A DNA stretch of 37,476 nt, from the IMG/VR virus record IMGVR_UViG_3300045970_000526, positions 1 to 37,476 of that record. One strand, given 5' to 3'. A program made the translations under genes and the position numbers. Shown piece after piece: positions 17,824-21,106 of the stretch. The stretch's first letter is position 1, and each line of letters begins with the position of its first letter. This stretch comes from a virus. The notes beneath the pieces were generated by a model. The model was not told the origin of the DNA. It made no database searches and saw nothing but the letters and a program-made list of their open reading frames with translations.

Positions 17824-18380
17824 GGACCCTCGCCGCCCTCATCCTCTGCGCATCGCTCGTCTCCCCGTCCATCACGCCGGGCGCATCCCGGCCCCAAGCC
17901 GAGACAGGAGCCGCCCCGGTGCACCGTGCAACGGCCCCTGAACAGGACGCCATGCCTTCGGGATCAACGTTCGTCTCTCGGCTGGGGACCGGGGCGCCCG
18001 CCGCCCCATCGCCGGCGGCCTCGGCCGTCCCTGGACCGAGGCCCTCTGATGCGCCTGTCGCAAAGGAGCCCGCGCCGGCACTTCCCTCCGTGGCCGACGC
18101 CCGGGCCTGGGCGCTGGCGAAGGTCGGCGCCCGCCAGTACCGCTGCCTCTCGGAGATCGTCCGCCGCGAGTCGGGGTGGATCCACACCGCGCGCAACCGC
18201 CGGAGCGGCGCGTACGGCCTGCCCCAGGCGATGCGCCCGGAGATCGCGTACGCCTCGTTCGGCGCGGACTGGCGCGTCAACCCCGTGGTGCAGCTGCGCT
18301 TCGCCGTCGCCTACGCGGCGCGGCGGTACGGCTCGAGCTGCGCTGCGCTGGCGTTCCACGACCGATGGGGGTGGTGGTGA
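17820..18380 (+). CDS. Secreted lytic transglycosylase-like protein
   Basis: A 186-residue protein from GTG 17820 (GTGA overlap; an upstream in-frame GTG at 17805 is less likely). Residues 1-18 form a signal peptide (RTLAALILCASLVSPS), followed by a Pro/Ala-rich linker to about 90. The C-terminal domain (about 95-186) has the SLT-type pattern of actinobacterial secreted transglycosylases: CLSEIVRRESGW (catalytic E117), SGAYGLPQA, GADWRVNP, RYGSSCAALAF and a terminal GWW. C109 and C174 could form a disulphide. It would cut peptidoglycan glycan strands outside the membrane. Its place upstream of the integrase, far from the holin, is unusual. Confidence 0.8.
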   Translation: MRTLAALILCASLVSPSITPGASRPQAETGAAPVHRATAPEQDAMPSGSTFVSRLGTGAPAAPSPAASAVPGPRPSDAPVAKEPAPALPSVADARAWALAKVGARQYRCLSEIVRRESGWIHTARNRRSGAYGLPQAMRPEIAYASFGADWRVNPVVQLRFAVAYAARRYGSSCAALAFHDRWGWW

Positions 18381-18589
18381 CGCCGGTGCTGGACAAGCTC
18401 ACGACCCGGGAGGAGTCCGTGCTGCTCGTCTACGCCGAGGGCGGCGGGCTGGGCGAGGCGGCGTCGAGGCTGGGCATCAGCGAGCTGCAGGCGCGCCGTG
18501 CCCGGGACCGGGCACGCCTCAAGCTCGGCGCGTGCAACACGACCGCCGCCGTCGTCCAGCTGGTGCTCGCGAGGACGGCGCGGCCGTGA
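18377..18589 (+). CDS. LuxR/GerE-type HTH protein
   Basis: A 70-residue protein from GTG 18377 (GTGA overlap; ATG 18365 is an alternative start). It is little more than a GerE helix-turn-helix: LTTREESVLLVYAEGGGLGE, then AASRLGISELQARRARDRAR, then a KLGACNTTAAVVQLVL end, matching the LuxR C-terminal domain. It has no receiver domain. It could activate late genes or regulate the integration module that follows. Part of the early operon by overlap. Confidence 0.8.
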   Translation: MTPVLDKLTTREESVLLVYAEGGGLGEAASRLGISELQARRARDRARLKLGACNTTAAVVQLVLARTARP

Positions 18590-18768
18590 CGCAGACCGTC
18601 CTGCTGACCGTCCCCGAGGCCGCCGACCGCCTGCGCGTGAGCCGCCGCACGCTCGAGCGCCTGATCGCGGCCCGCGAGGTTCGCCCCGTGCGGATCGGCC
18701 GCCGGGTGCTCGTCTCGGAGCGCGAGGTCGAGGTCTACCTGGCAGCCGCGTACCGGCGCCGGGCGTAG
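18586..18768 (+). CDS. xis: Excisionase-like HTH protein
   Basis: A 60-residue protein from GTG 18586 (GTGA overlap), ending nine bases before the integrase ATG. LTVPEAADRLRVSRRTLERLIAAREVRPVRIGRRVLVSEREVEVYLAA is the MerR-like winged HTH of the excisionase family (described here in pieces: VPEAADRLRVSRRTLERL, RIGRRVLV, EREVEVYL). Position immediately before a tyrosine integrase supports a role as Xis or as an integrase regulator. The symbol is by analogy. Confidence 0.75.
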   Translation: MTQTVLLTVPEAADRLRVSRRTLERLIAAREVRPVRIGRRVLVSEREVEVYLAAAYRRRA

Positions 18769-18777
18769 CATTCGCCC

Positions 18778-19899
18778 ATGGCCAAGCGCAGGGGCGTCCG
18801 CGGCATGGGCACGGTCTACGAGTCGCAGGGCTCCTGGATCGCGTCGTTCCCGCTGGGCGTCGTGTCCGGCAAGCGGACCAGGAAGCGCGAGCGGCACCCG
18901 TCGAAGGCCGCGGCCGAGGACGCGATCGCGCGCATGCGCAGGCTCTACGGCCGCGGCGGCGACCCGCTGGACGGCACGCTGGGCGAGTACCTGGACGCGT
19001 GGCTGGCGGACGCGAAGCCCACGATGCGGGCGTCCACCTGGACCAGCTACGACGGGCACGTCCGGCTCCACATCGTCCCGCTCCTCGGCGGCATCCCGGT
19101 CCGCAGGCTGCGGCCGGCGGACGTGCGCCGGCTGATCCTCGACCGGCTCGCCGCCAAGAGCCAGCGCGGCAAGGGGACCGATGAGAAGCCGCTCCCCAGG
19201 CTGTCGCCCGCCACCGTCGCCCGCATCGTCACGACGCTCCGGATCGCGCTCGAGGCGGCCGTGCGGCAGGACTCGCTCGAGGACAACGCGGCGGCCAAGG
19301 TCACGCTGCCCGCCGCCCGCGAGCGGCACGTGGAGGCCATGACCGAGGACATGGCCGAGGACGCCGTGGCCGCGTTCGACAAGCACTGGCTCGGCCCCCT
19401 CGTGCGGCTGCTCGCCGGATCCGGGCTGCGTCTCGGCGAGGCGCTCTCCCTCGACCAGGGCGACCTCGACGCCGGCGGCCGCTTCGTCCGGTTCCGCAAG
19501 TCCAAGACGACCGTCCGCGCCGTCTCGATCAGCCCCGACGCGGCGAAGGCGTGCCGCGAGGCGATCGCCGACGCGCCCCGGATCGGGCCGCACGAGCCGA
19601 TGTTCTTCTCGCCGCGGAAGAACCGCCAGGGCGTCCGCGACCGTCTCCGCGGGTCCACCGTCAGCCACACCGTCCCCAAGGTTCTCGAGGCGCACAAGCT
19701 GGCGCGGATGACGCCGCACGGGTACCGCCACGGGGCCGCCACGCGGATGGTCGCGGCCGGCGTCCACATGCGCGTCGTGGCCGACCAGCTGGGCCACAAG
19801 AACCCGGGCTTCACGGCCCGCGTGTATGCCCATGTTGTCCCAGGTGCCGAAGATCAGGCCGTTGACACGCTCGAGCGACGCAGAAAGACCGTGAGTTGA
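18778..19899 (+). CDS. int: Tyrosine site-specific integrase
   Basis: A 373-residue tyrosine recombinase from ATG 18778. Residues about 1-60 form the arm-binding AP2-like domain, about 65-170 the core-binding SAM-like domain, and about 190-373 the catalytic domain. Catalytic residues are visible: R218 (SGLRLGEAL), K243, H314 and R317 (PHGYRHGA), H340 (LGHKNPG) and Y350 (TARVYAHV). It recombines attP, about 0.7 kb downstream, with the host tRNA-His gene. A nuclease gene separates int from attP, which is unusual. The gene is intact and ends TGA 19897-19899, abutting the next ATG. Confidence 0.95.
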   Translation: MAKRRGVRGMGTVYESQGSWIASFPLGVVSGKRTRKRERHPSKAAAEDAIARMRRLYGRGGDPLDGTLGEYLDAWLADAKPTMRASTWTSYDGHVRLHIVPLLGGIPVRRLRPADVRRLILDRLAAKSQRGKGTDEKPLPRLSPATVARIVTTLRIALEAAVRQDSLEDNAAAKVTLPAARERHVEAMTEDMAEDAVAAFDKHWLGPLVRLLAGSGLRLGEALSLDQGDLDAGGRFVRFRKSKTTVRAVSISPDAAKACREAIADAPRIGPHEPMFFSPRKNRQGVRDRLRGSTVSHTVPKVLEAHKLARMTPHGYRHGAATRMVAAGVHMRVVADQLGHKNPGFTARVYAHVVPGAEDQAVDTLERRRKTVS

Positions 19900-20517
19900 A
19901 TGACGAAGCCGTGCGGCATCTGCTCCGAGCCGTTCGCCGCGCGATCAGACCGCGATCGCTACTGCTCGCCGGTCTGCCGCAAGGCGGCGGCCAGGGGCTG
20001 GTCGCGGAGATGGCGCCAGTCTCATCAGGAATCTGAGGCGGAGTCGCGAAGGCGCGGCAACGCGCTCCGCATGGCCAGGTATCGGTCGGATCCGGAATAT
20101 CGGGCGGCGCGGCGGCAGGCGGACAAGGTCCGCTATCACCAGCTTCGCGAGGCCGGTGTCACCGTCCACAAGATCGCGACCGCTGACGAGTACGAGCGCC
20201 TGGCCAGTGCGCAGCGACAGCTCTGCGCGATTTGCGGACACTGCGAGACGATGGTTGACCCGTCAGGCCGGTTCAAGCGCCTGGCTGTCGATCACGACGC
20301 GCTGACCGGCGATATCCGCGGGCTGCTTTGCGCACGCTGCAACATGGGGATCGGCCTGTTCGACCACGATGCACGCCGGCTTCAGGCGGCCGTGGAGTAC
20401 ATGCTGAAGTTCCCGCTCGCCGATTCGCTGATGGGCAAGCGCAGGGCGGCCGCGCTGCAGCGCGAGCTAGAAGTAGTCAATGAGAGGCGCCGCGCGACGC
20501 AGCCCCTCACCGCGTAG
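19900..20517 (+). CDS. Endonuclease VII-like HNH protein
   Basis: A 205-residue protein from ATG 19900, directly after the integrase stop. The N-terminus is a zinc ribbon (CGICSEPFAARSDRDRYC, then CRKAA). A long basic helix follows, then the recombination endonuclease VII core: CAICG (about 108-112), KRLAVDHDALTGDIRGLLC, then ARCNMGIGLF. The final helix is basic. It could be a homing element or a structure-specific nuclease. Base composition is slightly less GC-rich than its neighbours, suggesting separate acquisition. Its stop (TAG 20515-20517) overlaps the first integrase arm repeat, so it lies between int and attP. Confidence 0.85.
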   Translation: MTKPCGICSEPFAARSDRDRYCSPVCRKAAARGWSRRWRQSHQESEAESRRRGNALRMARYRSDPEYRAARRQADKVRYHQLREAGVTVHKIATADEYERLASAQRQLCAICGHCETMVDPSGRFKRLAVDHDALTGDIRGLLCARCNMGIGLFDHDARRLQAAVEYMLKFPLADSLMGKRRAAALQRELEVVNERRRATQPLTA

Positions 20518-20563
20518 GCTCACGGACAGGCTCACGAAACAGGCTATCTCCCGTTCATGTGCG

Positions 20564-20613
20564 TCGGATTGTGGCTCCGAAGGTCACGGGTTCGAGCCCC
20601 GTAGGCCACCCCA
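20564..20613 (+). other. attP core: 3' half of a tRNA-His gene
   Basis: From 20564 the sequence folds as the 3' half of a tRNA. Anticodon stem TCGGA/TCCGA surrounds loop TTGTGGC (anticodon GTG, His). Variable bases AGGTC follow, then T-stem ACGGG/CCCGT with loop TTCGAGC, 3' acceptor strand AGGCCAC, discriminator C (diagnostic for tRNA-His) and CCA. The 5' half (acceptor and D-arm) is absent. After integration this segment would rebuild the host gene, so it is attP identity and not a functional tRNA. Confidence 0.9.
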
Positions 20614-20641: not shown

Positions 20642-20711
20642 GCGTCCGATCGCGACCTGACACGACACGTCAGGCTCACGTTTAGGCTCACAGGCTCACG
20701 GACAGGCTCAC

Positions 20712-20739
20712 GGCAAGGGGGGTGCAACTGCACCCTGCC
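20712..20739 (+). terminator. Hairpin downstream of attP
   Basis: GGGTGC/GCACCC with an AACT loop (20720-20735), extended by GGCA/TGCC after a small bulge. No U-tract follows, as is common in high-GC genomes. It could end the early/integration transcript before the lysis genes. Confidence 0.4.
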
Positions 20740-20833
20740 CAACCGCCTCCGGACGGCCGATATTGGCCGCTGTGGACACTCCCTCCTCCACCAGGCGCGC
20801 TGGCTCCGCTGCTCCCGGGGTCGGCGCCGCCGT

Positions 20834-20905
20834 CGCAGGGTGGTCCGGTGACCGGCCCGGCCCCATAAGCCGCGCGACGGGGTCCGACTCCCCGTCCTGC
20901 AACCA
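20834..20905 (+). tRNA. Degenerate initiator tRNA-like element (anticodon CAT)
   Basis: These 72 bases fold as a tRNA. Acceptor CGCAGGG pairs with TCCTGCA in six of seven positions; the unpaired pair is C1-A72, the hallmark of bacterial initiator tRNA. Discriminator A and encoded CCA follow. The anticodon stem CCGGC/GCCGC (4 of 5 pairs, three G-C next to the loop) encloses CCCATAA, with anticodon CAT. The T-stem CGGGG/CCCCG is perfect, with loop TCCGACT. Departures from normal are C for U33, C for U55, and a shortened, poorly paired D-arm (GG in the loop is kept). It may be a decayed or specialised tRNA-fMet. I recognised this by hand and am unsure it is functional. Confidence 0.5.
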
Positions 20906-20989: not shown

Positions 20990-21106
20990 ATGACGGAGCG
21001 CCCGGGGCCCCAGCCCTCTGTATCGCCGGAGCTGTTCGCGATCGGCGTCGTCATCGGCTTCTTCGCCGGCATCCTGGCCTCGGAGGTCTGCCCGTGGAGG
21101 CGCTGA
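20990..21106 (+). CDS. Tiny membrane protein
   Basis: A 38-residue frame from ATG 20990: a polar start (TERPGPQPSVSPE) and one transmembrane helix (LFAIGVVIGFFAGILASEV), ending CPWRR. The next tiny gene overlaps it from GTG 21094. The reading frame is too short for statistics, but three such small membrane proteins in a row before the lysis enzyme support it as real, perhaps a spanin- or holin-accessory-like peptide. Confidence 0.5.
   Translation: MTERPGPQPSVSPELFAIGVVIGFFAGILASEVCPWRR

Follow-up and report, generated by a model that had tools for sequence, protein, structure and literature searches.

The element described here lies in a window of 37,476 nucleotides (the whole stretch of viral DNA that was analysed, IMG/VR record IMGVR_UViG_3300045970_000526), in the integration region of a temperate phage. 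The genes run from an excisionase-like protein, integrase and endonuclease VII through the attP core to the element itself, and then on to small ORFs, a holin-like gene, terminase, portal and capsid (Table 1). The 43-nt att core is found exactly in ten Chloroflexi MAG contigs, which makes Chloroflexota the most likely host, and the phage probably infects members of that phylum. Three related sequences bear on the locus: L002 and L003, which carry the element, and L039, a near-identical phage in a Chloroflexi MAG, which does not. L002 starts within a tRNA-His gene whose sequence continues into the phage, and L003 (also L020; IMGVR_UViG_3300045970_000684) is a 40.4-kb contig with a prophage in tRNA-Leu(CAA) and 60-bp att repeats. 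In the window, L002 and L003 the element sits ~170–220 bp inside the att end, co-directional with the host tRNA. The start region of the first small ORF past it is conserved in L002 and L039, and a search covering some promoter types found no promoter-like site for the element.

Several further features surround the attP core. Motifs of the AGGCTCACG type, repeated at 20516–20537 and 20672–20712 of the window, flank it and are also found in L039; they are candidate integrase arm-binding sites. An inverted repeat around GGGTGCAACTGCACCC (20717–20740), conserved in L039, may be an operator or a hairpin. The L003 prophage is apparently complete at ~40 kb, with its integrase adjoining the right att site.

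Table 1. Features of the integration region and of the 72-nt element (window coordinates)
Feature	Position	Strand	Basis
Excisionase/regulator-like protein	17926..18768	+	phrog_66, E=1.1e-9
Tyrosine integrase	18778..19899	+	phrog_1, E=3.6e-52
Endonuclease VII-like protein	19900..20517	+	phrog_2914, E=4.8e-24
attP core, identical to the 3' portion of a tRNA-His gene from Chloroflexota	20561..20613	+	43-nt core match; tRNA-His at L002 prophage end
Upstream block common to L002/L003, diverged in L039; possible hairpin GTGGA...TCCAC	20772..20833	+	
Initiator-type tRNA(CAU)-like gene, 72 nt including CCA	20834..20905	+	ARAGORN; kept in L002, L003
Acceptor stem 5' strand CGCAGGG, C1 unpaired with A72	20834..20840	+	Structural parse
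Mini D-arm GGUC-CGGU-GACC, 4 bp and 4-nt loop	20842..20853	+	Invariant in L002/L003
Anticodon arm CCGGC-CCCAUAA-GCCGC	20857..20873	+	Parse
Anticodon CAU	20864..20866	+	ARAGORN
T-arm CGGGG-UCCGACU-CCCCG, 5 pairs, C55 not U55	20878..20894	+	Parse; identical in L002, L003
Acceptor 3' strand UCCUGCA, discriminator A73, templated CCA	20895..20905	+	Sequence, parse
First small ORF past the element, 38 aa, hydrophobic; opens the downstream lysis/late genes	20990..21106	+	Sequence

Detection and anatomy of the element

The element is the sole tRNA called in the window by ARAGORN, as a 72-nt tRNA-Met with anticodon CAU. When the whole window was shuffled with dinucleotides preserved (n=200), 12 tRNAs were called (0.06 per shuffle), one with CAU and none with both CAU and CCA. 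The generic tRNA model RF00005 (threshold 29 bits) does not list the element, even in an 88-base search in which its best Rfam clan match is tRNA-Sec at 18.9 bits; the initiator of a host MAG reaches 65.3 bits with RF00005. Taken together, the ARAGORN call, the shuffles and the RF00005 miss identify the element as a genuine tRNA gene, though one far from the standard form. Its bare fold energy is ordinary for its composition (z −0.69), and hence the case for it is made by tRNA-specific features and by its relatives, not by stability. A pattern built on the D-arm, CAU and T-loop found no match in a scan of 85k genomes.

The acceptor stem pairs at all of positions 2–7 (six pairs, including G2:C71 and C3:G70), with C×A at 1:72. 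U8 directly precedes the mini D-arm, GGC leads into the anticodon arm, and the variable region is 4 nt (GCGA). The anticodon stem opens with a C27×C43 mismatch followed by C28:G42, G29:C41, G30:C40 and C31:G39, and its loop carries C33 instead of U33. An earlier, sequence-only reading had listed a CAT anticodon, C1-A72, an encoded CCA, abnormal U33, U55 and D-arm, and a length of 72 bases, details that ARAGORN and the structural parse confirm; the D-arm, unusual as claimed, can now be described as four base pairs closing a loop of 4 nt. The three pairs beside the anticodon loop are indeed G-C pairs, but they read GGC/GCC and not the initiator GGG/CCC. That reading had also held that the lack of any score under tRNA models would count against the element, and here the models divide, RF00005 missing it and ARAGORN finding it.

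Comparison with host and cellular initiator tRNAs

Six MAGs with the att core carry the initiator CGCGGGGTGG...CCCCGCAACCA. The element shares with this host Chloroflexota initiator C1×A72, G2:C71, C3:G70, A73, the templated CCA, CAU, G29:C41 and G30:C40. It differs in having A4:U69 for G4:C69 (a double change that keeps the pair), U66, C31:G39 for G31:C39, C33, C55 and C27×C43; in addition, its D-arm is the 4-bp miniature and its length 72 nt, whereas the host initiator has GGAGCAG...GCTC and 75 nt.

The shared features are those that distinguish initiators more broadly. C1×A72 occurs in 3392 cellular initiators as against 3 elongator/Ile2 genes, and 1:72 is mismatched in 98.6% of cellular initiators (PMC5143459). 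C1×A72 is also the main determinant of formylation, to which A73, G2:C71, C3:G70 and G4:C69 make lesser contributions (PMC9976931); three of these four are present in the element, the exception being 4:69, which is A:U. Likewise, the head of the 30S subunit touches G30:C40 and G29:C41 of the initiator (PMC11497404), and these are the pairs retained. The initiator resemblance put forward in the sequence-only reading is thus strengthened by the near-exclusive occurrence of C1×A72 in initiators, by the acceptor end in common with the host and by retention in two relatives. Nonetheless, of the features by which initiators are recognized, the element has the unpaired 1:72 (U:A being the permitted alternative) and the CAU anticodon, but not the three G:C pairs GGG/AGG at 29–31/39–41, which read GGC,GCC with 31:39 flipped, nor A11:U24, the second or third D-stem pair being G:C or U:A according to a register that is itself uncertain. 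Because these last two are defining features, we describe the element as initiator-like in its predicted anatomy and do not claim membership of the initiators for it.

Conservation among relatives and recurrence in other viruses

A 134-bp block is common to the window, L002 and L003, and in L003 it stops exactly at CCA, the sequence downstream being unrelated to that of the window. Within the 72 nt, variable sites in this comparison are 7, 30, 39, 40, 43 and 44, two of which fall in the variable loop. G7:U66 becomes A7:U66 in L003 with pairing preserved, C33 of the window is U33 in L002, and the C:C mismatch of the anticodon stem is displaced by one pair among the relatives. C1×A72 is present in all three, and the substitutions in L002 and L003 leave CAU, A73-CCA, the D-arm and the T-arm untouched; judged on predicted pairing, all the differences are structurally tolerable. 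The probability of at most one of six substitutions falling among 46 structural sites is ~0.02, a rough figure for sites that we chose ourselves, in a close-relative set of only three, two of them from one metagenome. The 134-bp block had no match in 126 genomes of the host order, and an integrase scan of viral contigs found no relatives. L039 has the same attP, a 97%-identical integrase and similar flanks, yet is without the element; this marks it as an optional cassette next to attP, and such optional presence argues against an essential leader function.

Similar tRNAs recur in other viruses. Among loci reached by BLAST or pattern similarity, 1:72 is unpaired in 16/22 CAU tRNAs as against 1/107 others (P=1e-14, a significance inflated by kinship among the phages); the lone exception is a TAT anticodon-mutated copy of the same gene, and the unpaired types comprise C.A, C.C, C.U, A.A, U.U and U.C. 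An IMG/VR scan with a pattern that required C1×A72, CAU and CCA and was blind to positions 29–31, 33 and 55 matched at least 119 contigs. Of 80 loci retrieved among the matches listed, 70 parse as full tRNAs (32 clusters), on contigs that may include some host sequence; ten matches of 67–68 nt were dropped as partial elongator-like tRNAs or non-tRNAs. The statement in the sequence-only reading that phage-encoded initiator tRNAs are uncommon finds no support in these IMG/VR numbers.

Among these 70 tRNAs, all of them from the matches listed, G30:C40 is kept in 67/70, but the GGG:CCC stem is present in only 5/70 (3/32 clusters) and absent from 65/70, against 3849/4438 cellular initiators in a published table that is not a matched scan. 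Position 55 is G in 28/70, whereas a non-U55 occurs in 7/344 of the remaining tRNAs in those loci; C33 is found in 3/70. L005 also has an initiator-type tRNA, which combines C33 with G55. The mini D-arm appears in two further viral tRNAs. The tRNA of L119, which sits within a phage array of 12 tRNAs, has a D-arm (GGAU-UGGU-AUCC) that differs from that of the window by two paired double changes, and an anticodon stem GGC,GCC with a 28:42 mismatch, as in L002. That odd start-type tRNAs recur in many unrelated viruses suggests a working viral gene rather than a relic, and since C33 and non-U55 recur there, the oddities of the element fit this virus-encoded class rather than decay.

Lactococcus phages 53801 and proPhi6 (L021 2740–3041 and L026 1130–1541) contain an unannotated CAU tRNA with A1×A72, placed after the late-transcription activator and before the terminase small subunit (53801) or a partial ParB-like gene (proPhi6), and preceded by at least one tRNA-like stretch with a T-arm and a poor body. 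In two orthologs the anticodon has drifted: that of P1048 (L031 604–677) reads UAU, and no tRNA is called in AM1 (L033 ~601–672).

Possible function and alternatives

We favor the view that the element is a phage-encoded initiator-type (tRNA-fMet-like) tRNA, carried as an optional cassette adjoining attP, and would assign this a probability of roughly 0.58. The tRNA would be transcribed toward the late genes, and in a lysogen transcription running on from the host tRNA gene immediately upstream may add to this; host RNase P would trim the transcript, the CCA being already encoded, and host enzymes would charge it with methionine through CAU. Because of C1×A72, A73, G2:C71 and C3:G70 it would be expected to be formylated, the open 1:72 end would exclude it from elongation, and G30:C40 with G29:C41 would allow entry into the ribosomal P site. 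The changed anticodon arm, T-loop and mini D-arm may thus make it unlike the host initiator with the parts for initiation retained, and the most likely gain would be start tRNA out of reach of those host toxins or nucleases that target the cellular initiator, the putative role that we favor. Host MAGs carry 11–16 PIN-domain genes each, which makes VapC-type toxins possible attackers. Counting against an initiator are the RF00005 miss, the lack of a promoter-like site among the promoter types searched, the broken GGG/AGG and A11:U24 (both near-universal in initiators), the loss of U33 and U55, and the fact that so close a relative as L039 manages without the element.

It is worth considering this in light of phage tRNAs that evade tRNA-targeting defences (PMC10264068; PMC11555353). 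Like the element, these are phage-encoded and depart from the host tRNA in the anticodon loop or stem; unlike it, none is an initiator in the passages searched. PMC10264068 states, for VapC-LT2, that phages generally avoid encoding tRNA-fMet, and proposes evasion through altered anticodon loops for other phage tRNAs. We found no mention of a phage-encoded initiator tRNA in the open-access literature.

Several other explanations must be weighed. The element could be a tRNA-Met, of phage or host origin, that was once normal and is now degenerating, as its C33, C55, shifted C:C mismatch and lack of an RF00005 score might suggest; the Lactococcus orthologs of P1048 and AM1, which have lost CAU, show that such genes can decay, and L039 either lost the element or never had it. 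This is nonetheless unlikely: the acceptor, D-arm, T-arm, CAU, A73 and CCA are intact across three relatives, and the mini D-arm covaries in L119. The sequence-only reading, which had offered decay as one option, is poorly supported on this point, given that substitutions spare the structure and that C33 and the loss of U55 recur in viral initiator-type tRNAs; its interpretation as a whole is partly supported. The same anatomy and the many host PIN-domain genes would also suit a tRNA-like decoy, charged or not, that takes no part in initiation itself but titrates out a toxin, an anticodon nuclease or a host factor, and phage tRNAs are established anti-defence factors (PMC10264068; PMC11555353). 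A decoy, however, would be expected to retain, unaltered, the anticodon arm through which such enzymes recognize a tRNA, whereas what the element retains is G30:C40 and C1×A72, which serve initiation, so that we consider a decoy quite unlikely.

A tRNA-like RNA that acts in cis within the leader of the late genes, with a role in processing or control comparable to the tRNA-like ends of plant viruses, would accord with the position ahead of late genes, which recurs in Lactococcus P335-type phages between late activator and terminase. The Tymovirus/Pomovirus/Furovirus tRNA-like structure (RF00233) likewise has a short D-arm, a GGGG/CCCC T-arm and an ACCA end, and its model gives the element 28–29.5 bits against 11.4 for the host initiator. 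However, these scores lie below the family's 40-bit cut-off, and the element is a gene of a DNA phage with a conventional acceptor helix and no pseudoknot; we rejected the tymovirus identity on these grounds. A leader is improbable also in that L039 keeps the flanks without the element, the related tRNAs of L004, L005 and L119 sit in tRNA arrays, and in L003 the element ends precisely with its CCA even though what follows is unrelated sequence. An accidental resemblance in a GC-rich ORF would explain why frame 1 is open across the element in all three relatives, but is very improbable given that no shuffle yielded CAU with CCA, that substitutions are not clustered at any one codon position and that the L003 homology ends at CCA. 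Finally, the proximity to attP/attL in a temperate phage recalls the tRNA-dependent lysogeny of actinobacteriophages, in which a short core leaves the host tRNA broken and a phage tRNA of the same isotype replaces it (PMC10865867). Here neither holds: the att cores rebuild the host tRNA-His or tRNA-Leu at the prophage ends, as L002 and L003 attest, and CAU fits neither isotype, so that this explanation was rejected as hardly credible.

If the initiator-type tRNA is instead viewed as one of many, it is possible, and we suggest it only tentatively, that bacterial viruses carry a wide class of start tRNAs in which only the essential marks remain (unpaired 1:72, G30:C40 and CAU), with GGG:CCC, A11:U24, often U55 and sometimes U33 and the full D-arm dropped, so that these tRNAs go unseen by host toxins directed at tRNA-fMet or start at other codons; the window form would be among the most reduced. 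Phage tRNAs are known mainly as elongators. Were these tRNAs working initiators, viruses would provide the tRNA that governs every translation start, in a form that departs from the three G:C pairs usually supposed to be required, inviting the questions of which initiator features are truly necessary and whether altered initiators help viruses to survive toxins that cut or modify tRNA-fMet. The standard tRNA model can overlook part of this class.

Some minor observations concern viral tRNAs more generally. The tRNA of L006 has BLAST matches in Klebsiella phages of the Schitoviridae, but these are confined to a short segment around CCTCATAAGC, lie within or next to ORFs and show no tRNA fold; they were set aside. 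In L115, L118 and 26 further loci, viral CAU tRNAs have the T-loop UGCRANU (with G55), which is otherwise rare. The 177-kb phage contig of L006 carries a tmRNA gene (L014 2481–2781) in its phage tRNA array.
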